Below, piece after piece: positions 38,871 through 49,289 of a stretch of 64,000 nt of DNA; position 1 is the first letter of the stretch, and each line of letters starts with the position of its first letter. This DNA is from Methanococcoides burtonii DSM 6242. Its GTDB lineage: Archaea; Halobacteriota; Methanosarcinia; Methanosarcinales; Methanosarcinaceae. Under the pieces are notes generated by a model. The model did no database searches and was not told where the DNA came from. It saw nothing but the letters and a program-made list of their open reading frames with translations. The DNA lies in contig NC_007955.1 of the NCBI RefSeq assembly GCF_000013725.1, positions 1,519,579 through 1,583,578 on the forward strand, written 5' to 3'. Made by a program: the position numbers and the translations under genes.

Positions 38871-39296
38871 TCACTCTTCTTCTACTGTTAATTTGGTCAT
38901 GACATCGCTCTGCTTGATAGCATTGACAACATCCATGCCTTCGATGACCTTTCCGAATACAGTGTGTACGCCATCAAGATGTGGCTGAGGAGAGTGAGTG
39001 ATGAAGAACTGACTTCCACCAGTGTTCTTTCCAGCATGTGCCATTGAAAGGGCGCCCTTTGTATGCTTCTTTGGATTTATCTCACATTTAATAGAATAGC
39101 CAGGTCCACCGGTCCCATTGCCTTTTGGACATCCTGCCTGGATCATGAAGTTAGAGATTACCCTGTGAAAAGTAAGGCCGTTGTAAAAGCCCTGCTTAAT
39201 AAGCTTCTCAAAATTTGCAACCGTTTTTGGTGCATCCTTTTCGAAAAGTTCGAGTACTATAGTTCCTTTATTTGTCTCAATTATTGCTTTTTTCAT
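38871..39296 (-). CDS. Peptidyl-prolyl cis-trans isomerase, cyclophilin type
   Basis: 141 residues. Cyclophilin signatures: [22 protein letters not shown] (catalytic Arg), [36 protein letters not shown] and [16 protein letters not shown]. It speeds proline isomerisation during folding. Cytosolic, no signal peptide. Stand-alone gene. Confidence 0.95.
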
Positions 39297-39527: not shown

Positions 39528-39553
39528 GGATATACAAATATAAAGTGATAAGA

Positions 39554-40501
39554 ATGGATGATCGCGGTCAAGTTGCTCTTGATTTCCTCTTTGGAATGGC
39601 TTTATTTTTAGTTGCGTTTACTTTTACAATGCAGTTTGTACCGGGTTTGTTCGTTTCTGATTCTACCGATGAGACTGGTATTGCTTTTACAGCATATCGC
39701 ACTGCTACGATCCTCAGTGAAGATCCGGGCTGGTGGGAGAACAGCACCCAAAGGGGTACGGATTGGGAAGATCATGTATCCAACGCAACAAGAATAGGGC
39801 TTGCAGTAGATACTGTTCCGGAAACCCGACTAACGGATACGATAAATCTGTTGAGCATGGACAAATCGTTGCAGTTAATGTACCTCGATGAAGATACCCT
39901 GATAACGAAATTAGGACTTTATGACAATATCAATGGAAAACATATCAGATATGGTTACAACATCTCCCTTCATCGGGACGGTAACCCCATTTTACTGAAC
40001 GATACTTTATTTGTCAGGGGAGAGATAAATACAGATTCTGTAGACGTATTCAAGATCGAGCGCCTTGCATTAGTGGAAACGGGTACATTTGTCGACTATG
40101 ATGCCAATTCCCTTTATTCCAATGGAACTGCGGACACTACAAGAATATCTATAAGTGAGTCACAAAAAGGCAAGATGGTAATTGACATCAACAACTTTAC
40201 GACGACCTCTCCAAATTCAAGTTTCGAGAATATATCCATGGATGGAACGCTATTGAACAGCTCGAATGATTATGTTGTTTATCTTAAAAATAGTAGCAAT
40301 GGCTTTGAACCCTATTCCCCTCCTATAATGAGCAATAATATGCTTCGTCTGGAAATTTATCCAATGGCTTTTGAAAATTCAAGCCTTGTAGAAATTGAGT
40401 TCGATGATGTTACCTTTATTTCAGGGCCAGCAGTGGAATACACAGCTAGCAAAGAACCGTTCTATGAACTGGCACAAATGATGGTGAAGGTCTGGAAATG
40501 A
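39554..40501 (+). CDS. Archaeal pilin-like surface protein 1
   Basis: 315 residues from ATG 39554 (a GTG at 39545 is also in frame). It starts MDDRGQVALDFLFGMALFLVAFTFTMQF: a short charged leader, then a hydrophobic helix with an early Glu/Asp-like polar residue, as in class III (type IV pilin-like) signals cleaved by PibD/EppA-type peptidases. The large extracytoplasmic part has many Asn-X-Ser/Thr sites. First of five overlapping genes of the same kind; no ATPase or platform gene is adjacent. In haloarchaea similar sets (DUF726x/728x families) lie next to pilB/pilC, from memory. Confidence 0.75.
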   Translation: MDDRGQVALDFLFGMALFLVAFTFTMQFVPGLFVSDSTDETGIAFTAYRTATILSEDPGWWENSTQRGTDWEDHVSNATRIGLAVDTVPETRLTDTINLLSMDKSLQLMYLDEDTLITKLGLYDNINGKHIRYGYNISLHRDGNPILLNDTLFVRGEINTDSVDVFKIERLALVETGTFVDYDANSLYSNGTADTTRISISESQKGKMVIDINNFTTTSPNSSFENISMDGTLLNSSNDYVVYLKNSSNGFEPYSPPIMSNNMLRLEIYPMAFENSSLVEIEFDDVTFISGPAVEYTASKEPFYELAQMMVKVWK

Positions 40502-41013
40502 ACGATAAAGCACAAATATACACTCTTGAAGGACTTATGGCAGCAGTTCTGATCACCCTAACAGTACTGGCTGTTGCACAAAGTTCAGTGGTGATCATTC
40601 CTCAAACGGAGAATTTCCTTGAAGTGCAGATGAAGCAGAAAATAAATGATGCGCTTGTGATACTCGATGTAACTCCTGATACTACAATTGAGAATAACCT
40701 GACGGAATGCGTTGCCAGCTGGAACACAAGCACAGAAGCCTCTTACGGAAAAAATCAACTTGTAGCACTCGATAAGCAATTGGCAATAATGTTGCCGGAT
40801 CTCATGTACAATGTTAAATTTGCCTATGTGGAAAATAACAGTGTGGTAGTGAAAAACACTGTATTCAATGGTGCCCCCACAGAGAATTCGATCACTGCGA
40901 ACCGACTTGTAGCGTTGAGCAATTCAACTGTAAACTCTTATGGCGGAACATGGGTGGTAGCCGATGATGAACTCAAAGTAATAGAAGTGAGGTTAACTGC
41001 ATGGCACGTATAA
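40498..41013 (+). CDS. Archaeal pilin-like surface protein 2
   Basis: 171 residues. N-terminus MNDKAQIYTLEGLMAAVLITLTVLAVAQSS, a pseudopilin-like signal with a charged start, Glu before a hydrophobic helix, and a beta-rich remainder (LPDLMYNVKFAYVENNS). Overlaps gene 1 by 4 bases (ATGA), so it is translationally coupled. C-terminal part VVADDELKVIEVRL suggests a strand that ends near the membrane-distal face. The family is DUF7288-like by memory; the role is presumably as a minor pilin. Confidence 0.72.
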   Translation: MNDKAQIYTLEGLMAAVLITLTVLAVAQSSVVIIPQTENFLEVQMKQKINDALVILDVTPDTTIENNLTECVASWNTSTEASYGKNQLVALDKQLAIMLPDLMYNVKFAYVENNSVVVKNTVFNGAPTENSITANRLVALSNSTVNSYGGTWVVADDELKVIEVRLTAWHV

Positions 41014-41459
41014 TTGAAAATGATCAGGGACAGTGGATCCTGCTCTCAGGTCTTGTGGTAGCTATTGCCCTGGTCTTCCTGGTAACCCTCATGAACAATG
41101 CGGCAGTTACCGGTTATCACTCATCTAACAATGCCCTGGAATTTCCAAAAGATGATATCAGGGATCTTGTATCCCAGTCAAGAGATGCTACATCCCAGGC
41201 AGTTCATATTGCACATCAGATAAACCAGTCATCTAATCAGACCATTCCAGAGATCACTACTTCTATTATTGATGATTTTAACCGCCAGACAAGTTTGCTG
41301 TATGCTTCACATGGCCAAACGGTTGTTATAAGTGTATCGAACATCACAATAAACGAATCAGCATCATCTTTTGGTGATATGGTCTGGTTGAACATCAGCT
41401 ATAATGATGGTAATACATTCTATTCTTCAGAACCAGAGATAGTGGAGGTCAGAGTATGA
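41001..41459 (+). CDS. Archaeal pilin-like surface protein 3
   Basis: 152 residues. It begins MARIIENDQGQWILLSGLVVAIALVFLVTLMNNAA: a polar leader followed by one long hydrophobic helix. The rest contains an amphipathic helix (QSRDATSQAVHIAHQINQ) and a strand-rich end with Asn-linked glycosylation sequons. Overlaps gene 2 by 13 bases. Confidence 0.72.
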   Translation: MARIIENDQGQWILLSGLVVAIALVFLVTLMNNAAVTGYHSSNNALEFPKDDIRDLVSQSRDATSQAVHIAHQINQSSNQTIPEITTSIIDDFNRQTSLLYASHGQTVVISVSNITINESASSFGDMVWLNISYNDGNTFYSSEPEIVEVRV

Positions 41460-41902
41460 GATTATTATTCAAAGATGAAAAAGGAGTATCTTCTACAACC
41501 GGTTATCTGTTGTATTCATCCATATTCATAATGTTCTTCGTAGTCATCCATTTTAGCGTGAACGATGTTTTACTGGAAAGACAAAGTGATATTGTAGTCG
41601 AAGAGGGATTCAGTGATATAGGGAATATGATGAGCACTACACTCACCGATATGTACCTTATCGCACCGGAAAATGGCAGGATCGATACAAAGTACATGAT
41701 ACCAACGACCATTGGAAATGAATATTATACAATAAATGCAGACGTGGCTACTACAGACCAGCTAATTGAAGTGGAATCCCAATCATCTCAAAGGAAAGTA
41801 GATGTAACGATCAGCGGGATCGCAAGTACGGTCCCAATTAACGGAACTGCCTTGAGTGGTGAAATGGAGCATATGATCAGTTATGACTCAAGAAGACAAT
41901 GA
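41456..41902 (+). CDS. Archaeal pilin-like surface protein 4
   Basis: 148 residues. The N-terminus KDEKGVSSTTGYLLYSSIFIMFFVVIHF is the classic K/G-x-S-x-x-x-G archaeal flagellin/pilin-like signal with a hydrophobic helix. The rest has a helix (SDIGNMMSTTLTDMYL) and a beta domain. Overlaps gene 3 by 4 bases and gene 5 by 20 bases. Confidence 0.74.
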   Translation: MRLLFKDEKGVSSTTGYLLYSSIFIMFFVVIHFSVNDVLLERQSDIVVEEGFSDIGNMMSTTLTDMYLIAPENGRIDTKYMIPTTIGNEYYTINADVATTDQLIEVESQSSQRKVDVTISGIASTVPINGTALSGEMEHMISYDSRRQ

Positions 41903-42623
41903 TAGAGGAGATAAAGCCGTATCTGAAACAGTAGGATTCATACTTCTGTTTGGTGTAGTTGTAATAGGAATGAGCTTCATTTATGTAACGGGCTATCCCA
42001 TTTTACAATCGAACATGGATTCAAGCATCTTTCAAGGAGCTGAACAAAGTTTCATTGTTATGCAAAGTGATATGAAAATGGTCTCTTTTGACCAGACTCC
42101 TGTCAAGAACATGAACCTCAAGCTTCATTCGGCAGGAATGTGGATCGATAGTACACCTTTCATGGACATAACATATAATGGGACAAGTACACATTATCCC
42201 ATAGGAAAGATAGAATACATGAAAGGGGAACGGTCTTTAGCTTATGAGAACGGCGCTGTAATGGCCCAGTATGATACCGGCTCGAAGATCATGCTTTCGG
42301 ATCCCCGGATCTACTCAACGATTATTGGAGGCGATGACATAACCACTATTGGCATCGTGCAGGTCAATGGTAATGGCGGTTCATCCGGAAGTTCTGTGAT
42401 TACTTTGAAGATGGAACACAATGACACCGTTCTGACAAGAACAGATATACCTGTTAATGTATCTTTAAAAATGAACAGCGATTATGCATATGTCTGGAGA
42501 GATTACTTTGAAGACATCGGGTTTGCAACATCTCCAGTCATCAATGAAACCTATTTTGAAGCATATAAGAACGACACATTCCTGATAATAGGTCACAACA
42601 TCGTGGACACCAGAATTACTTGA
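41883..42623 (+). CDS. Archaeal pilin-like surface protein 5
   Basis: 246 residues. The start DRGDKAVSETVGFILLFGVVVIGMSFI is a typical archaeal type IV pilin N-terminus (AVSETVG, as in DUF1628/pilin_N proteins). The ectodomain of about 200 residues is beta-rich with several sequons (NGT, NDT, NVS). Last gene of the operon, followed by a terminator. It converges with the giant VWA gene. Confidence 0.78.
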   Translation: MTQEDNDRGDKAVSETVGFILLFGVVVIGMSFIYVTGYPILQSNMDSSIFQGAEQSFIVMQSDMKMVSFDQTPVKNMNLKLHSAGMWIDSTPFMDITYNGTSTHYPIGKIEYMKGERSLAYENGAVMAQYDTGSKIMLSDPRIYSTIIGGDDITTIGIVQVNGNGGSSGSSVITLKMEHNDTVLTRTDIPVNVSLKMNSDYAYVWRDYFEDIGFATSPVINETYFEAYKNDTFLIIGHNIVDTRIT

Positions 42624-42771: not shown

Positions 42772-42812
42772 ATCAAAAAAAAGTAATAACGTTTTCATGA
42801 AAGCGTTATTAC
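42772..42812 (-). terminator. Terminator of the giant VWA gene
   Basis: GTAATAACG at 42783-42791 pairs perfectly with CGTTATTAC at 42804-42812; the inner sequence also pairs partly. On the minus strand a run of T follows (A-run 42774-42781 on the plus strand). The hairpin overlaps the stop codon at 42795-42797. Confidence 0.7.
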
Positions 42813-45800
42813 ACCTTTTGGCCTGATATAAACAACAGCATTCGAAGATACTGAATTGTTTCCATTGCTTCCTATAGCCTTTATGTGTGCAGTACCTGCC
42901 ATCATGCTCATCAAGTTGATCTGATCCGACCCACTGATCGTTATGTTTATTGGGTTTTCAGTTTCATTGAAGGTCCCGATACTTGAATATATCTGCATGT
43001 TAGCAATGGCTGGGTTCCCATCAGAATAGACAGCCTTTAGATCCAATAGCGCATCCTCTCCAATAAGCACTGTTGGAGACTCGGGAATAATTGAGATATT
43101 TCCAAGAGATACATAATCAACACTTGCCCCAAATCCGGAAATTCCTGTTTCACCTTCATAACTTATCTTAACATCAATGTTCGTTCCATTGACATCGGTA
43201 TAATTTATCGATGATGTAGGTAATATCAAAGGAACCGAACCTGCACCCTGAACTTTAACCTGGAACCATACACCCCATTTATCCCCCGGACTCATGGAGG
43301 GTAAATTCCAAAGTAATTCCGACCTATCTCCCTCAGTACTTAGAATTGGTTCTGCATTGCCTTGCGAGGCACCCATTGGTATTGAATATTGAGTTGAGTT
43401 GCCAACCGTAGAATTCGTACTATTTGGTATGTAAGTTGCCGTAGCTATATACAATCCAGTTATGTAATTGTGAGGTATGTGCATTGAAAGTGTAGGACCT
43501 GCTGCAGTAAAATTTGTTATCTCTGATGCAATGCCTATAAAAATATCTTCTAATACTGTAGAATTGGGTGCAAAATAATATTTACCACCAGTGATATTGG
43601 CGATCTCACAAAGGATAGGATCTACCTCATCTTCATTGTTCCCGAGACCAACAGTATAGATGACAGTATTGTGTTCTTTTGCGCGAAGTGCTTCTTCTAT
43701 TAACGAGTGATGTCCTGCGTTATCCAGACCATCGCTCATAAGGACAACTGTTGAATTACCTGTAATTGCTGAGAGTTCATTATTGGCTTCATACAGCCCC
43801 TCATCAATTGCAGTAAGCCCATCTGCGGTAATAGTATCGATTGAATTACTAAGATGAACAAGAGAATTATTTGACAATGATGAAGTGACTGTCGCCCTCC
43901 ATTCCTTCCAGTTCAACTCCGTAGATGAATATGTCGTATCTTTCCATGGATACACAATATCAGATACTTCGTAATAACGTGAAGATGATATCTCCACCTC
44001 ATAAGGAACATTCCACGAATCACCATTCCATTTCTGGACATTTATATCCGAGCTTCCATCAGAAGTAATCAGAGATATTTCGTCAGAATCAACATTAGAT
44101 TCTAAGTTCACCCATCGAGTGTAACCCGAACTTGCAAGACTGGATGACGATCCTTCAGCCCCCCAGTTAGATCCATTCCATACCAGATATTTTGGCGTAT
44201 TCGTACTGTCGCCCCAAACGACCATAGCATCCCCACTGCTACCCTCAAAGGCCACATCGAAAATACGTTTGGAATATTCATAACAATCGTCTTCTATTTC
44301 AGTAAGGGGTGTCCATGACGTACTGTTCCACATAGAAACATGGATATCCATGCCGTCATCTTCGACACCGACAATAGCATTATCTGAATTCGGATCTGTC
44401 GCGATCTTTATCCAGTATCCAATGGGAACACCAAGATCAAAGATAGTGCTTTCATTTTCCCATGATACCCCATTCCAGACGCGCGAACGTATATCCCCAT
44501 TGCTTTCTGCCCAGATGACCATTGCATCTCCACTTTGCTGCTCATAGCCCACGTCAAAACACTGATAATAACCATAAGCTGCAGCAGAATTCGTTATTGT
44601 GATCAGATTGCCCCAGCCAGATCCATTCCAGACCTGTGCACGAATATCATTGTCATCATCGAGAGTGACAAGCATCATTTCATCAGAATATGGTTTTGAA
44701 ACAATTTCGACCCAGCAAACATTCCCTGCGCCGGGATTGGTAGCATCAGTTGATGAAGCCGGAGACCAGAGTGCTCCATTCCAAACCCTGTATCGAGCAA
44801 CTCCCTCATTAAGGGTCATATCCATATAGACTGCAAGTGCATCCCCAGATATCGACTCATATCCAATATCAAAACCACGGGTAGTAGATGAATCCATATA
44901 GGATGTGAATTGTTCTACTCCACTCCAGCCAGAACCGTCCCAAACCTGCACATTGAAATCACGGTTGTAATCTCCGGTACCGAGTATTATTTCTTCTTCA
45001 ACAGGAGATTCTGCTAAGATCAATTGACGTATTGACCCACCAACGTAGTTAGCTGATCGCTCAACTGACCATTGATCGCCTTCCCATATACGATATCTTG
45101 GAACACCGGAACTCCCACTATCGTAATAAGCGGACATCAAACCACTAAGTTGTCTGCTCGTTGCATTGATCGTGAAGAATGTGTCATTTTCAGTGCCTGC
45201 TGATTTGTTCACGATAATGTGATAATCATTCCCTGTAAGCAGAGATGAATTCACCACCTTGGGATCTATGCCGTTCGATGATGATAAGAGTTCAGTCCCT
45301 TCATACAATGACATGTCGATAGTTGAACTATCGTTCCATGATAGCTCAAAACTGTAAAATGCATCTTTTTCTGGTGTGAAATAGCTTAACCATTCGCTTT
45401 TGTTGCGAATGTAGCTGGATTGGTTGTCCGAAGTAACAACATGATTGTCACTGTAGAGAACAAGTCCGGAGAGATCGCCACGACTTTCATCGAAGCTTGA
45501 TATAAATGCCTTTGATGCAATTTGTGTCGCACTTTTTTTGTCTATGAAAGTAGTAAGTGTGAAAGGCTCATCACTGGAAGAACTGCTAACCTGTAAGGTC
45601 CAGTTTCCGGCCTCGACCATATCAGTATCAGGGTACTCATAAAATGTAGGCTGCACCCACACAAATTCAGAAGTTTCTTTGGTTATCGAATATTCCACGA
45701 TTATCAAAGGCCTCCAACCATTGAGATCATAGTGATGGTCATTTTCATTAGTATCAGATGATGCAAAACGATCAATACTAGGATCTGCATCTGTTCCGGC

Positions 45801-46610
45801 ATAACCGCTTCCCACAAGTACGATACTACATTCATCATCCCATTCAGGAACTCTATCCGTACCCCACATTGAATCAGTTATATTAAACTCAACGACATCA
45901 CCTGCAATGGAAGAAGATCGTGAAAGAGTATCAATAGCGTATGAATTGTTGTAATCAGAACCACTAAAGGAACCAGACTCCCATGTCTGTGATGTTGCAT
46001 TATTGTTCCATGTAGGAACTGAATATGGTGTCAAAACATCATAAACTGTAATGCTTCTGGAATCACTACCCGCATCCCATCCAACATAAGGTTCATTCAC
46101 TCCTTTTAAATAAAGAGTAACGCTTTGGATCGTCGTGTTATGAGTAGGTGCTGAAGGAAGGCTCCATTTCATAATAGAAGCTGCCTGATCACCTGCATTG
46201 TTCATATCACTGGTAACATATAGTGAAGTCGATGATCCAAAATTGGTGTTCGGGGAAGAGGAGTCGATGAAAGTATCGAATTCTGTATCTCTAATGCTGA
46301 TGTCTGCAGAGAATCTTTCATCCGTGAAATATCCAGAAGTAGATTCTGCCCTTCCATACGAGGTACCAGATGGTGACGTTAATCTGACATCCAGATCATT
46401 GCTTATGGAGCTCCAGCTCGCCATTGCCTTTAGATCATTGACTGACTCGTTCACCTGAAATACTTTTTCATATCCATAATAGGAAGTGTTAAAATTAATC
46501 ACATATGGCGCTGCATTTGTGTACGTGCTTTCTGAAAGATCGGATGCTACAAGTATCCCATCCGCAAACAATTCAAGATTTCTGATAGAATTGGTATAAT
46601 CATGCGTATT
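42795..46610 (-). CDS. Giant VWA surface protein, part after the in-frame amber codon
   Basis: 1,271 codons that continue the frame of the 892-codon part (46611-49289) after one TAG. There is no start signal of its own: the first possible start is a TTG at 46571 without a ribosome-binding site, and no signal peptide exists. The order is: end of a beta-sandwich domain (TNSIRNLELFADG), a proprotein-convertase-like and DNRLRE-like section (ADISIRDTEFDTFI), eight repeats of the W-x-G-x-x-W kind (about 44010-45100), a VWA-like part (ADGLTAIDEGLYEANNEL, STVVLMSDGLDNAGHHS) and Ig-like strands. A DxSxS metal motif is not visible in this VWA part. Many N-glycosylation sites. The gene ends at a strong terminator. 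Confidence 0.8.
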   Translation of the reverse strand, partial: NTHDYTNSIRNLELFADGILVASDLSESTYTNAAPYVINFNTSYYGYEKVFQVNESVNDLKAMASWSSISNDLDVRLTSPSGTSYGRAESTSGYFTDERFSADISIRDTEFDTFIDSSSPNTNFGSSTSLYVTSDMNNAGDQAASIMKWSLPSAPTHNTTIQSVTLYLKGVNEPYVGWDAGSDSRSITVYDVLTPYSVPTWNNNATSQTWESGSFSGSDYNNSYAIDTLSRSSSIAGDVVEFNITDSMWGTDRVPEWDDECSIVLVGSGYAGTDADPSIDRFASSDTNENDHHYDLNGWRPLIIVEYSITKETSEFVWVQPTFYEYPDTDMVEAGNWTLQVSSSSSDEPFTLTTFIDKKSATQIASKAFISSFDESRGDLSGLVLYSDNHVVTSDNQSSYIRNKSEWLSYFTPEKDAFYSFELSWNDSSTIDMSLYEGTELLSSSNGIDPKVVNSSLLTGNDYHIIVNKSAGTENDTFFTINATSRQLSGLMSAYYDSGSSGVPRYRIWEGDQWSVERSANYVGGSIRQLILAESPVEEEIILGTGDYNRDFNVQVWDGSGWSGVEQFTSYMDSSTTRGFDIGYESISGDALAVYMDMTLNEGVARYRVWNGALWSPASSTDATNPGAGNVCWVEIVSKPYSDEMMLVTLDDDNDIRAQVWNGSGWGNLITITNSAAAYGYYQCFDVGYEQQSGDAMVIWAESNGDIRSRVWNGVSWENESTIFDLGVPIGYWIKIATDPNSDNAIVGVEDDGMDIHVSMWNSTSWTPLTEIEDDCYEYSKRIFDVAFEGSSGDAMVVWGDSTNTPKYLVWNGSNWGAEGSSSSLASSGYTRWVNLESNVDSDEISLITSDGSSDINVQKWNGDSWNVPYEVEISSSRYYEVSDIVYPWKDTTYSSTELNWKEWRATVTSSLSNNSLVHLSNSIDTITADGLTAIDEGLYEANNELSAITGNSTVVLMSDGLDNAGHHSLIEEALRAKEHNTVIYTVGLGNNEDEVDPILCEIANITGGKYYFAPNSTVLEDIFIGIASEITNFTAAGPTLSMHIPHNYITGLYIATATYIPNSTNSTVGNSTQYSIPMGASQGNAEPILSTEGDRSELLWNLPSMSPGDKWGVWFQVKVQGAGSVPLILPTSSINYTDVNGTNIDVKISYEGETGISGFGASVDYVSLGNISIIPESPTVLIGEDALLDLKAVYSDGNPAIANMQIYSSIGTFNETENPINITISGSDQINLMSMMAGTAHIKAIGSNGNNSVSSNAVVYIRPKGVITLS
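44010..45100 (-). repeat. Eight W-x-G-x-x-W repeats inside the surface protein
   Basis: Units recur about every 50 residues, each with a core like RVWNGALW, QVWNGSGW, RVWNGVSW, LVWNGSNW or QKWNGDSW, preceded by a strand such as GDAMVVW or SDEISLIT. The regular alternation of two strand types suggests a beta-propeller or paired-strand solenoid. Boundaries are approximate. Confidence 0.75.
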
Positions 46611-46613
46611 CTA
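46611..46613 (-). other. In-frame TAG codon joining the two halves of the giant surface gene
   Basis: The plus-strand bases are CTA, minus-strand TAG. Upstream codons encode GGMNTITI and downstream codons in the same frame encode NTHDYTNSIRNLELF, with no other stop from 49289 to 42795. The conserved pattern NTITI-x-NTHDYTN places the codon inside one beta-sandwich domain. Decoding as pyrrolysine, another readthrough, or a nonsense mutation are the possibilities. Confidence 0.85.
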
Positions 46614-49289
46614 AATAGTGATAGTGTTCATCCCACCCAGAACCACTGATGAGATATCATACTCAAAGGTCGACCATCTTTTGTCCCCGGTAACAGATAG
46701 TTCGAAACTATAGTTACCATTAACACACACCTTACAATCTTCATTGGAATCATCAATGTCCCATGCATCGTATTTTAAAATATATGGTGCATCTGAGGAT
46801 GTCAGGTTAAGGTCGTCTGCAAATACATAGCTGTAAGGAGTAAATCCTTCAGTACCATAATCGATCTCGGTTACATCGAAATCACTGATCTCTTTTGAAA
46901 TGGTATTGTAAACTGTTTGCAGTTCTGAACCGCTCGGGGCGTTATAATAGCTACCACCGGTTTCGGACGCAATGCGCTTTAGCATAGGCTCATCGATATA
47001 TTCAGAACTTCCAAGACCTATAGAGTATATTCTGATATTGTTTAGATTCGCAGTACTTATTGCATCTGAACCATCTCGATCGGATCCTGCAGTTGCTACA
47101 CCATCAGTAAGAACTATCATTATTTTTTTGGCGTCCGGCCGACCATTGATAAGAAGGTTATTTGCATCTGCCATCGCATCACCTATTGCAGTACCCCCAT
47201 CTGCGACCATGGAATCGATCGCATTATGCAACAGATCTTTGTTTCCGGAAATATTAAGGGATACGGGTTGTCGATCCACAGTGCTGGTACTTGAAAAAGA
47301 GACAACTCCAACTTCTGTATTCGAGAGCAGATTCTCCATGAATATCTTTGCTGCTGACTTGGCATCGGTTAGTGGTTGTTCCGGCGCATTTCCAAGGAAT
47401 TTCATACTTCCTGAACGATCAAGGACAAGAACTATGTCAAGTGCCGTGCCTGCATAGTAATCAGGGTCCATACTTCCAGAACGGTCAAGAATAAGCATTG
47501 ATGTCGCAGCCGACCTACTGACAGGCAATTCCCCTTCCACTGTAATGACCGTTGTAATATTTACAATATCACCAGAGGTTACTACATAAGGTTCTGCATC
47601 GATGGAAGCACTGATGAAAGGCTGGTTCCTTATCTCTATTGAAAGACTATCATTTATGGCATCACTTAATCCAATTATTGTACAGTTCCCTACAAAGTTC
47701 GAACTTGTGAACTCGGTGATCACTCGCCCATATTGGTCAGTTGTGAAGTTTATTAGATTCGATTCATTGGACCCATCCAATGAAAGAGTTCCTAAAGAAG
47801 GAGCTGTGTTGTTAAGAGTTACATTAATATTCTGAAGAGAATGACCCCATGCATCAAGTGCTATTAATGTAACAGTTGAGTCATGATTTCCTGACAGATT
47901 GTTTGCCAGCACAACATTTGGATTGGCATAAAAATTAAATCTTGACAGAGGCCCTTCTGTAAATGAAAGTTCTTTCGATGTATTAATATTAGTAGTACCA
48001 GTCTCATTTTTGTAGGTCGCTGTGATAGAAATATTTTCCACATAGGGAGTCGGACCAACTACAGTGGTTGCAACCCCATAGTCATTTAAAGGGATCAGGG
48101 TCGAACCTAAACTGGATTCAAACAGGACTTGGTCCTTTATTTGAAAACTACCTGGAAGCAAAGGATTCAAGAACTGATCTATTATCTGTGCAGAAAGTCG
48201 ATATGCATCTTCATTGTTTGCATAACAGGAAGAAGGTGTTGATGAGAGTGTAAGGTCCGTTGCAATGTCAGGAGTACCGGTTATGCTGAGCCTCAGGAAC
48301 AGAGATGTATTTAACGCACCTATATTTACAATATTTTCTCCGGCACGCTTGTCTGTTCTAAGATAAACAGTCACTTTACCACCCAACGGCGTGGATTCCA
48401 GTGAAGAAGAAAGCCATGATGAATTATAAGTTACCGGACTGTTGTATATGGTGTCTATCGGATATGTTGCGTTGAAAATTAAAGTCGCTCCTTCTATCGG
48501 ATTGTCATAACGATCATGTAAACTTACAACAATCTCAGAAGTTGTATTGACAACATACTCGTCATCATAAAGTGCTTCCATTGAGTAGGGAGTGGATGGT
48601 GCATAAACTACAGATGTATTATTTATAATTCCCAATGCATCCGATCCTATTGAGAGTGTTCCTGCGAGAGTGGAATTTATTCGTAACAAAAGACCTGTAC
48701 CTTCAGTCGATTTGACAGAGGTCATATTGTTATGATCAATGGATATTTCGAACATATTACCCATCCATTCAGACAGGACAATGTTCTCATCATGTAGTTC
48801 TGAAAGTACATCCACCATTGTAAGATAGAGGTTGATGGTTGGAGTGTTGTTGATGTTGCCATACTGATCGCGAAGAGTGACATTCACATCTACCGCATTT
48901 CCTGCAGACGGATCGGTTTTGTTGACCTCGAAGATTATGTCCTCTATAGGAGCAGGTAAAAAGGAGATGTTGGTCATGTTCGTTTCAGTTCCCGAACTGG
49001 CATTTACGACCAAATTGCCGGAAATTGTTGAATTGATGAAAACTGTAGCAAAACCGGAATCATTCGTTGTGGAAGAAGAGGAACTAAGCATTCCAAAATT
49101 GGTAGAAAAATTAACCGAGGTATTGTTAAGAGGTAGTGTCCCATTCATGAGACGGCCAGTTAATAATACTGTGTCCCCTACCTGTGCCGAAGTATCACTG
49201 GCTGAAAATTCCAGTGTTACAGCCATAACAGGAGTTGTGAATAAAAATAATAGAAGTAGAATGCTCGCGAACTTTGCTGATATTTTCAT
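46611..49289 (-). CDS. Giant VWA surface protein, part before the in-frame amber codon
   Basis: 892 codons from ATG 49289. Signal peptide: KISAKFASILLLLFLFTTPVMA. Then several Big-1/invasin-like Ig domains (VGDTVLLTGRLMNGTLPLNNTSVNF, and repeats of the N-x-T-rich type) to about residue 590. A von Willebrand A domain follows (about 600-800): metal motif DRSGSM occurs twice, then SFSSTSTVDRQ, ADGGTAIGDAM and IVLTDGVATAG. A malectin/galactose-binding-like sandwich begins near residue 830 and is cut by the TAG. The protein should be exported, glycosylated and exposed, perhaps as an adhesin. The full frame with the downstream part is 2,164 residues. Confidence 0.85.
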   Translation of the reverse strand: MKISAKFASILLLLFLFTTPVMAVTLEFSASDTSAQVGDTVLLTGRLMNGTLPLNNTSVNFSTNFGMLSSSSSTTNDSGFATVFINSTISGNLVVNASSGTETNMTNISFLPAPIEDIIFEVNKTDPSAGNAVDVNVTLRDQYGNINNTPTINLYLTMVDVLSELHDENIVLSEWMGNMFEISIDHNNMTSVKSTEGTGLLLRINSTLAGTLSIGSDALGIINNTSVVYAPSTPYSMEALYDDEYVVNTTSEIVVSLHDRYDNPIEGATLIFNATYPIDTIYNSPVTYNSSWLSSSLESTPLGGKVTVYLRTDKRAGENIVNIGALNTSLFLRLSITGTPDIATDLTLSSTPSSCYANNEDAYRLSAQIIDQFLNPLLPGSFQIKDQVLFESSLGSTLIPLNDYGVATTVVGPTPYVENISITATYKNETGTTNINTSKELSFTEGPLSRFNFYANPNVVLANNLSGNHDSTVTLIALDAWGHSLQNINVTLNNTAPSLGTLSLDGSNESNLINFTTDQYGRVITEFTSSNFVGNCTIIGLSDAINDSLSIEIRNQPFISASIDAEPYVVTSGDIVNITTVITVEGELPVSRSAATSMLILDRSGSMDPDYYAGTALDIVLVLDRSGSMKFLGNAPEQPLTDAKSAAKIFMENLLSNTEVGVVSFSSTSTVDRQPVSLNISGNKDLLHNAIDSMVADGGTAIGDAMADANNLLINGRPDAKKIMIVLTDGVATAGSDRDGSDAISTANLNNIRIYSIGLGSSEYIDEPMLKRIASETGGSYYNAPSGSELQTVYNTISKEISDFDVTEIDYGTEGFTPYSYVFADDLNLTSSDAPYILKYDAWDIDDSNEDCKVCVNGNYSFELSVTGDKRWSTFEYDISSVVLGGMNTITI

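Follow-up and report, generated by a model that had tools for sequence, protein, structure and literature searches.

Five pilin-like genes and a convergent giant VWA gene of Methanococcoides burtonii as a putative tip complex of a euryarchaeal type IV pilus

The archaeal type IV pilus that comes closest to the locus described here is the euryarchaeal Clade 2 system of PilB4-locus kind (Makarova, Koonin and Albers 2016, PMC4858521), which has several pilin families of its own, encoded next to a Clade 2 ATPase/TadC pair or away from it, and a minor pilin of 250-550 amino acids (aa) that is often duplicated, arCOG02911. The portions of that paper drawn on here propose tip adhesins (DUF2341, PilY-like) for Clade 1 and treat vWA proteins as regulators only, and they describe no VWA tip protein for a PilB4-kind system. 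In bacteria, PilY1 together with minor pilins primes and tips the type IVa pilus (PMC7541494), the minor pilin PilB of Streptococcus sanguinis carries a grafted vWA module (PMC8179133), and the tips of Tad pili (CpaL/TadG, Kil) are minor pilin complexes with exchangeable end domains (PMC12607857, PMC12075869). We analysed a stretch of 64,000 nucleotides of Methanococcoides burtonii DSM 6242 (NC_007955.1, positions 1,519,579 to 1,583,578; hereafter the window), in which five overlapping pilin-like genes converge with a gene for a giant VWA protein. We think it probable that the five pilins form a tip or priming complex which displays the giant protein as an adhesin on a type IV pilus of PilB4-like euryarchaeal kind. 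The proposal is built on observed gene content, homology, order, linkage and co-occurrence and on VWA or FG-GAP fusions into three of the five pilins; it fits because gene order is kept, a PilB lineage is shared and adhesin modules stand on different pilins or in a separate VWA protein.

The five genes (P1 to P5) occupy positions 39545-42623 of the plus strand and, from the list of open reading frames (ORFs) and the sequence, encode short proteins with hydrophobic N-termini. Successive genes overlap by 4 (P1/P2), 13 (P2/P3), 4 (P3/P4) and 20 (P4/P5) bases. In the features below, a slash within the signal motif marks the predicted cleavage site.

39545..40501, + strand: P1, DUF7287 pilin-like protein (PF23958, 43.4 bits, cut-off 27, residues 5-60; signal DRG/QVALDF)
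40498..41013, + strand: P2, DUF7288 pilin-like protein (PF23959, 78.7 bits, cut-off 27; signal DKA/QIYTLEG)
41001..41459, + strand: P3, DUF7261 pilin-like protein (PF23922, 29.7 bits, cut-off 27; signal DQG/QWILLSG)
41456..41902, + strand: P4, DUF7266 pilin-like protein (PF23928, 32.4 bits, cut-off 27.6; signal EKG/VSSTTGY)
41883..42623, + strand: P5, DUF7289 pilin-like protein (PF23960, 95.1 bits, cut-off 27; signal DKA/VSETVGF)

As all five proteins exceed the Pfam gathering scores of separate families (cut-offs 27-27.6), their assignment as pilins goes beyond chance; NCBIfam gave no name to any of the five, and the Pilin_N match of P5 fell below threshold (11.8 bits). P1 has 318 aa when read from the GTG at 39545, and the ATG at 39554, the start used in the first-pass annotation, is an alternative. 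The rule for archaeal prepilins is a charged leader with G, A or S at position -1 and a cut before the hydrophobic helix (PMC4371748). Each of the five begins with a short charged stretch followed by G or A and a hydrophobic helix, and by inspection all show the class III signal features of archaeal type IV pilins. These motifs were read by eye after an automatic cleavage-site finder had misplaced some of the sites, and they are kept in up to 17 orthologs of the window's cluster kind as [KR]G/QIAxDF, KA/QLHTLEG, xG/QWIxLSG, [GA]/VSxxxEY and A/VSETxG for P1 to P5 respectively. DUF7289 resembles arCOG02911 in size and duplication, and from this match by description P5 is probably the arCOG02911 minor pilin of PMC4858521. 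Folding was done on monomers only, and the P5 model, made from three close sequences, was discarded (predicted local distance difference test, pLDDT, 29.3). The five overlapping pilin-like genes reported by the first-pass annotation are thus borne out; its idea that the overlaps imply a fixed stoichiometry was given up, as overlaps do not show stoichiometry.

To follow the set across relatives, family searches of whole genomes were used because a single-protein search of genome contigs gave two Methanococcoides loci only, at 85-90% identity. Of 294 genomes of the phylum 193 have DUF7288, and of 60 relatives 47 have DUF7289. Hidden Markov models built in this analysis served to annotate stretches of up to 20 kb (L denotes a locus, G a genome and f a family). 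L159-L162 were annotated separately; the 3.3-3.8 kb loci L001-L016, L027-L056 and L097-L098, as well as L021, L022 and L024-L026, stood outside the main annotation. L059 (the same place as L018) and L017 (the same as L061) were dropped before counting, and the GC-rich loci L129, L131 and L132, where pruning kept wrong-strand ORFs and genes were missed, enter no rate. A tree of 93 clusters, built with FastTree from 407 columns and rooted at the midpoint, has several weak inner nodes; it sets the window's kind of cluster (type A) apart from a paralogous kind (type B), in which P1 is shorter and DUF7289 occurs two or three times.

The window's type A clade (support 1.0) comprises 17 clusters of families f1 and f4, and throughout it the five genes are contiguous and in the same order, rather than scattered without each other. 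The giant VWA gene lies convergent and directly downstream of P5 in 15 of the 17 (the window, L018, L061, L073, L119-L125, two in L126/L159 and two in L127/L162), where the VWA gene of L061 is a fragment at a contig end and a 305-aa ORF of L123 stands between P5 and the VWA gene. The remaining two clusters (L081 and L086) have the giant VWA gene elsewhere in the genome. Of the type B clusters, 30 have no type A neighbour, and in the annotated stretches of these, some of them short, no VWA ORF was found; the counts of 17 and 30 were taken by hand from the tree and cluster table. Among the 60 relatives, type A clusters occur in 12, the giant VWA gene in 13 and both in 11 (Fisher p 2.6e-9), the genome sets having been assembled by hand and G003 and G045 being VWA-positive on partial genes at contig ends (L061 and L108).

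Further evidence comes from natural fusions. A pilin module and VWA in one chain are absent from the window's proteins and present in 14 relatives: the DUF7266 pilin (P4) reaches 790-970 aa with VWA in 13 genomes of families f9 and f34, and the DUF7261 pilin (P3) is fused to VWA in one genome (L155). Pfam matched VWA_2 in 13 of these 14 fusions, VWA in 12, DUF7266 in nine and PKD_4 in eight; the bacterial N-methylation pilin motif was not among the matches. None of the 13 genomes with a P4-VWA fusion holds a long homolog of the first half of the giant protein. At L134, PilC, PilB, two DUF7289 genes, the fused pilin and P3-P1 lie on one strand, and at L138 a 1310-aa VWA protein adjoins P3 on the same strand. 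The DUF7288 pilin (P2) grows to 1468-1681 aa in six f3 loci, and in all four of these proteins that were scanned FG-GAP repeats lie between two halves of the pilin domain. A functional link between the pilins and the VWA protein, which the first-pass annotation had thought conceivable, is thereby well supported, by linkage in 15 of 17 clusters and otherwise by a VWA gene elsewhere in the genome or fused into a pilin, as is its suggestion of a minor or tip pilin set by conserved order, linkage and fusions; the co-occurrence check it had proposed came out in its favour.

The wider idea, that the five pilins are a shared platform on which the adhesin is exchanged (a separate giant protein in the window's family and near relatives, VWA on DUF7266 or DUF7261, or FG-GAP in DUF7288), making it, within a single homologous system, an archaeal counterpart of PilY1 and the modular pilins whose free adhesin would carry pyrrolysine in at least two genera, seems to us evenly balanced. 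The modules are not strictly exchangeable, since the f3 genomes carry the FG-GAP pilin plus the giant VWA protein. The f2 genomes also have enlarged P2, P3 and P4 proteins of about 590-790 aa (L084:13474-15336, L095:11972, L111:3574-5946, L090:10631-14198), and the one scanned, that of L111, showed no clear known domain.

The genome is a single contig of 2,575,032 bases, and no match to T2SSE or T2SSF (PilB/PilC) lies within the window, the closest being in an archaellum locus about 67 kb past its right end. Genome-wide there are seven T2SSE and nine T2SSF matches and one prepilin peptidase gene (PF01478). While the ATPase and platform loci L021 and L022 are archaella, three PilB/PilC modules are not (L019, L020 and L023). 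The earlier statement that the genes are without assembly machinery hence stands for the window and fails for the organism. The L023 pair carries a DUF7289-like pilin, and L019 and L020 have no nearby pilin. The L020 pair, at about 438.7-443.3 kb of the genome, is unlinked to the pilin set, and it is known that archaeal pilins can be encoded apart from their motor (PMC4858521). Orthologs of its PilB (at least 59% identity, a line chosen after a gap between 59% and 55% was seen) occur in 36 of 40 DUF7288-positive versus one of 20 DUF7288-negative genomes among the 60 relatives, and other PilB lineages (36-50% identity) persist in several of the negative ones. In other families an L020-like PilB adjoins the pilin set (L128, L130-L134 and L137), some of these genomes being probably haloarchaea, and in G037 PilB and PilC of L020 type adjoin two DUF7289 genes (L083). 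From this distribution the L020 PilB is likely the partner motor of the pilin set. The chromosomally nearest PilB (1650 kb) was rejected as the motor: it is part of an archaellum locus, so proximity is no guide here.

The giant gene runs on the opposite strand. The first-pass annotation was right that it converges with the pilin genes; it consists of two ORFs that translation through a TAG joins into one frame, with this TAG at codon 893 as the sole interruption. Its features are as follows.

42795..49289, - strand: giant secreted VWA protein, one frame of 2,164 codons (ORFs 46611-49289 and 42795-46571)
48960..49214, - strand: Big_1 Ig-like domain, first of two stretches (PF02369, 47.5 bits on the 892-aa ORF), adjoining the N-terminal hydrophobic segment
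46905..47438, - strand: VWA domain 1 (PF00092, 85.9 bits) with a DRSGS motif of the type of the metal ion-dependent adhesion site (MIDAS)
46611..46613, - strand: in-frame TAG, probable pyrrolysine codon (from the sequence and PylS in the genome)
45930..46280, - strand: CBM96-like carbohydrate-binding module (PF24517, 30.8 bits, cut-off 26)
43929..45170, - strand: predicted lectin-like beta-propeller, eight WxG/S..W repeats, before the second VWA segment
43539..43871, - strand: VWA domain 2, C-terminal half (PF00092, 27.5 bits, profile 57-172 of 174)

The protein begins with a hydrophobic segment resembling a secretion signal, and its Big_1 stretch matches the intimin chains 6tpl and 1f00. The DRSGSM strand of the MIDAS is doubled in tandem in VWA domain 1 (residues 598 and 620). 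Most giant VWA proteins likewise have DRSGSM twice in tandem about 22 residues apart (46905-47500 in the window, and orthologs), and in the fused pilin of L134 the MIDAS region looks similar to the first of these copies, which carries DPDYYAG. The repeat region gave an all-beta model (AlphaFold2 from one sequence; pLDDT 61.5, predicted template modelling score 0.67; four other models had pLDDT 27-38), whose best Foldseek matches were the lectins PHL/PLL, RSL and AAL (E 2.1e-9 and weaker, prob 1.00, TM about 0.5). We predict from it a lectin-like beta-propeller and take nothing finer from the matches; a sequence search of the PDB with the propeller returned a single chance-level match (E 0.81). 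The WxG/S..W repeats number three to eight in most other full-length orthologs and are lacking in L018, so the ligand end of the giant protein varies.

Because a single TAG stands in a continuous frame and the genome encodes PylS (439.6 bits versus a cut-off of 178), the two ORFs probably encode one giant protein. Relatives have uninterrupted ORFs, of 1758 aa in L018, 2184 aa in L073 and, in seven of the nine loci L119-L127, 1842-2071 aa. All four in-gene frame breaks in the annotated loci are TAG and none is TAA or TGA: they lie in the window's VWA gene, its ortholog in L120 (3113-8311) and the DUF7289 genes L060:10743-11525 and L079:8696-10111, and in the last three pyrrolysine in surface proteins is possible. 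The alternative that the TAG really terminates translation, as a genuine stop or through a nonsense mutation, leaving the gene broken or yielding an 892-aa secreted fragment with VWA domain 1, is consistent with the interruption itself and with TAG endings in three of the 46 window ORFs of at least 150 aa (pruned list, VWA ORF included). We regard it as unlikely given the presence of PylS, the intact remainder of the frame, which is 75-83% identical to congeners, and the restriction of the breaks to TAG.

Set against the bacterial systems, the window resembles PilY1 and its minor pilins (PMC7541494, PMC8179133) in having a large secreted non-pilin protein with VWA and beta-propeller and a linked minor-pilin set. 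Unlike in PilY1, the propeller is lectin-like and lies inside the VWA2 region, and the pilin families are archaeal; the Neisseria_PilC/PilY1 propeller (IPR008707) gave no match on the full 2164-aa protein with Pfam at E 0.05, and DUF2341, the PilY-like adhesin of archaeal Clade 1, is absent among its Pfam matches. The DUF7266-VWA proteins are like S. sanguinis PilB (PMC8179133) in that a MIDAS-bearing vWA is grafted on a minor pilin, whereas the pilin family differs and the window's VWA is a separate protein. The vWA of CpaL is split by an inserted beta-rich region (PMC12607857), as in the window protein, but the five pilin families are archaeal and the Tad system is bacterial; no TadE or TadG Pfam domain was found in the five window pilins or the 14 fusions. 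The tip complex would work like PilY1 with minor pilins, vWA-modular pilins and CpaL/Kil tips, but by Pfam it is a member of none of them. No literature on a VWA tip of this archaeal system, judged by title and opening of the abstract, nor any naming the five DUF families, was found in a search that left supplements and subscription journals outside.

In the mechanism we propose, the products of the five genes would form a conserved complex that primes, or sits at the tip of, a euryarchaeal type IV pilus of PilB4-like kind. After membrane insertion, the genome's only prepilin peptidase would cleave each pilin ahead of its hydrophobic helix, and association of the pilins through these helices would begin a filament, with the unlinked L020 PilB/PilC pair as its motor in trans. 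The giant protein of about 2,160 residues, in which pyrrolysine would be inserted at the TAG, may then sit on the pilin complex as the tip adhesin, presumably binding the pilins and a ligand; it combines Ig repeats and a MIDAS-bearing VWA with domains of carbohydrate-binding and lectin-like propeller type.

Several points weigh against such a complex. The co-occurrence p-values (2.6e-9 and 7.9e-11) ignore shared ancestry, and in the f3 genomes a giant VWA gene coexists, unlinked, with the FG-GAP pilin. G053 (an assembly 85% complete) has a type A cluster without the giant VWA gene, and G008 and G012 have the VWA gene without the type A set, though in both the contig breaks off shortly after the 3' end of that gene, at the place expected for the cluster. 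Four DUF7288-positive genomes are without the PilB ortholog (G034, G049, G056 and G023, the last with a fragment containing a stop), and in Haloferax volcanii PilB3-C3 can complement the loss of PilB1-C1 (PMC6491452), so the motor need not be exclusive. The G023 fragment (C2:1050934-1051344) is of L020 type, 93% identical, with an internal TAA, and is probably a decayed motor gene; the pilin set of this genome is kept. Finally, PMC4858521 proposes that every pilin of this system could contribute to the filament instead of standing at the tip alone.

From the last point follows another explanation, that the five are filament-body subunits and the VWA protein, a mere genomic neighbour, belongs independently to the cell surface or S-layer. 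The pilin and VWA genes do lie on opposite strands, G035, G039 and the f3 genomes show no linkage between the two, and N-glycosylation sequons occur in all seven ORFs (the five pilins and the two VWA ORFs), as in surface proteins. Yet genomes with unlinked genes still hold both, P4 carries a fused VWA in 13 genomes and P3 in one, and it is the paralogous type B clusters that are without VWA, which leaves a mere neighbour improbable. Still less probable is a pseudopilus of a type II-secretion-like pump exporting the giant protein, which five pilin-like proteins with an ATPase/platform pair and the cargo's own N-terminal secretion-like signal would also suit, as signal-bearing cargo can exit via Sec, a one-membrane archaeon needs no second step and a pump would not need the VWA and FG-GAP modules built into pilins of other families. 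Overall, the first-pass annotation holds as to the pilin kind, the minor or tip set and the VWA link, and does not as to a machinery-free organism and stoichiometry from overlaps.

Some neighbouring and related genes were also recorded. A peptidyl-prolyl isomerase-like gene at 38871-39296 of the window is 81-97% identical in relatives, and such a gene often adjoins type A or type B pilin clusters or the VWA gene (L061, L069, L074, L076, L081, L099, L122 and L123). Stand-alone Pilin_N genes of the same genome at C1:1111148-1111375 (frame of 165 aa) and C1:2074886-2075110 (frame of 1376 aa) are candidates for a major pilin and a large pilin-like surface protein. Type B clusters can follow a coiled-coil protein of 728-1056 aa (L057:4778-6964, L070:13169-16339), and both of these preceding proteins that were scanned contain an Arch_fla_DE (ArlD/E) domain (1e-27 and 2.7e-28), which hints at a pilus whose cytosolic part resembles that of an archaellum.

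Little is known of how archaeal pili are primed and what their ends contain, and here one homologous set shows the adhesin both in cis, on three pilins, and in trans, which makes the roles of each DUF pilin directly testable. A function is proposed for five families of 'unknown function' and a likely motor is named. Pyrrolysine has its main home in methylamine enzymes; if the proposal is true, a pyrrolysine-containing adhesin would place this residue outside them.

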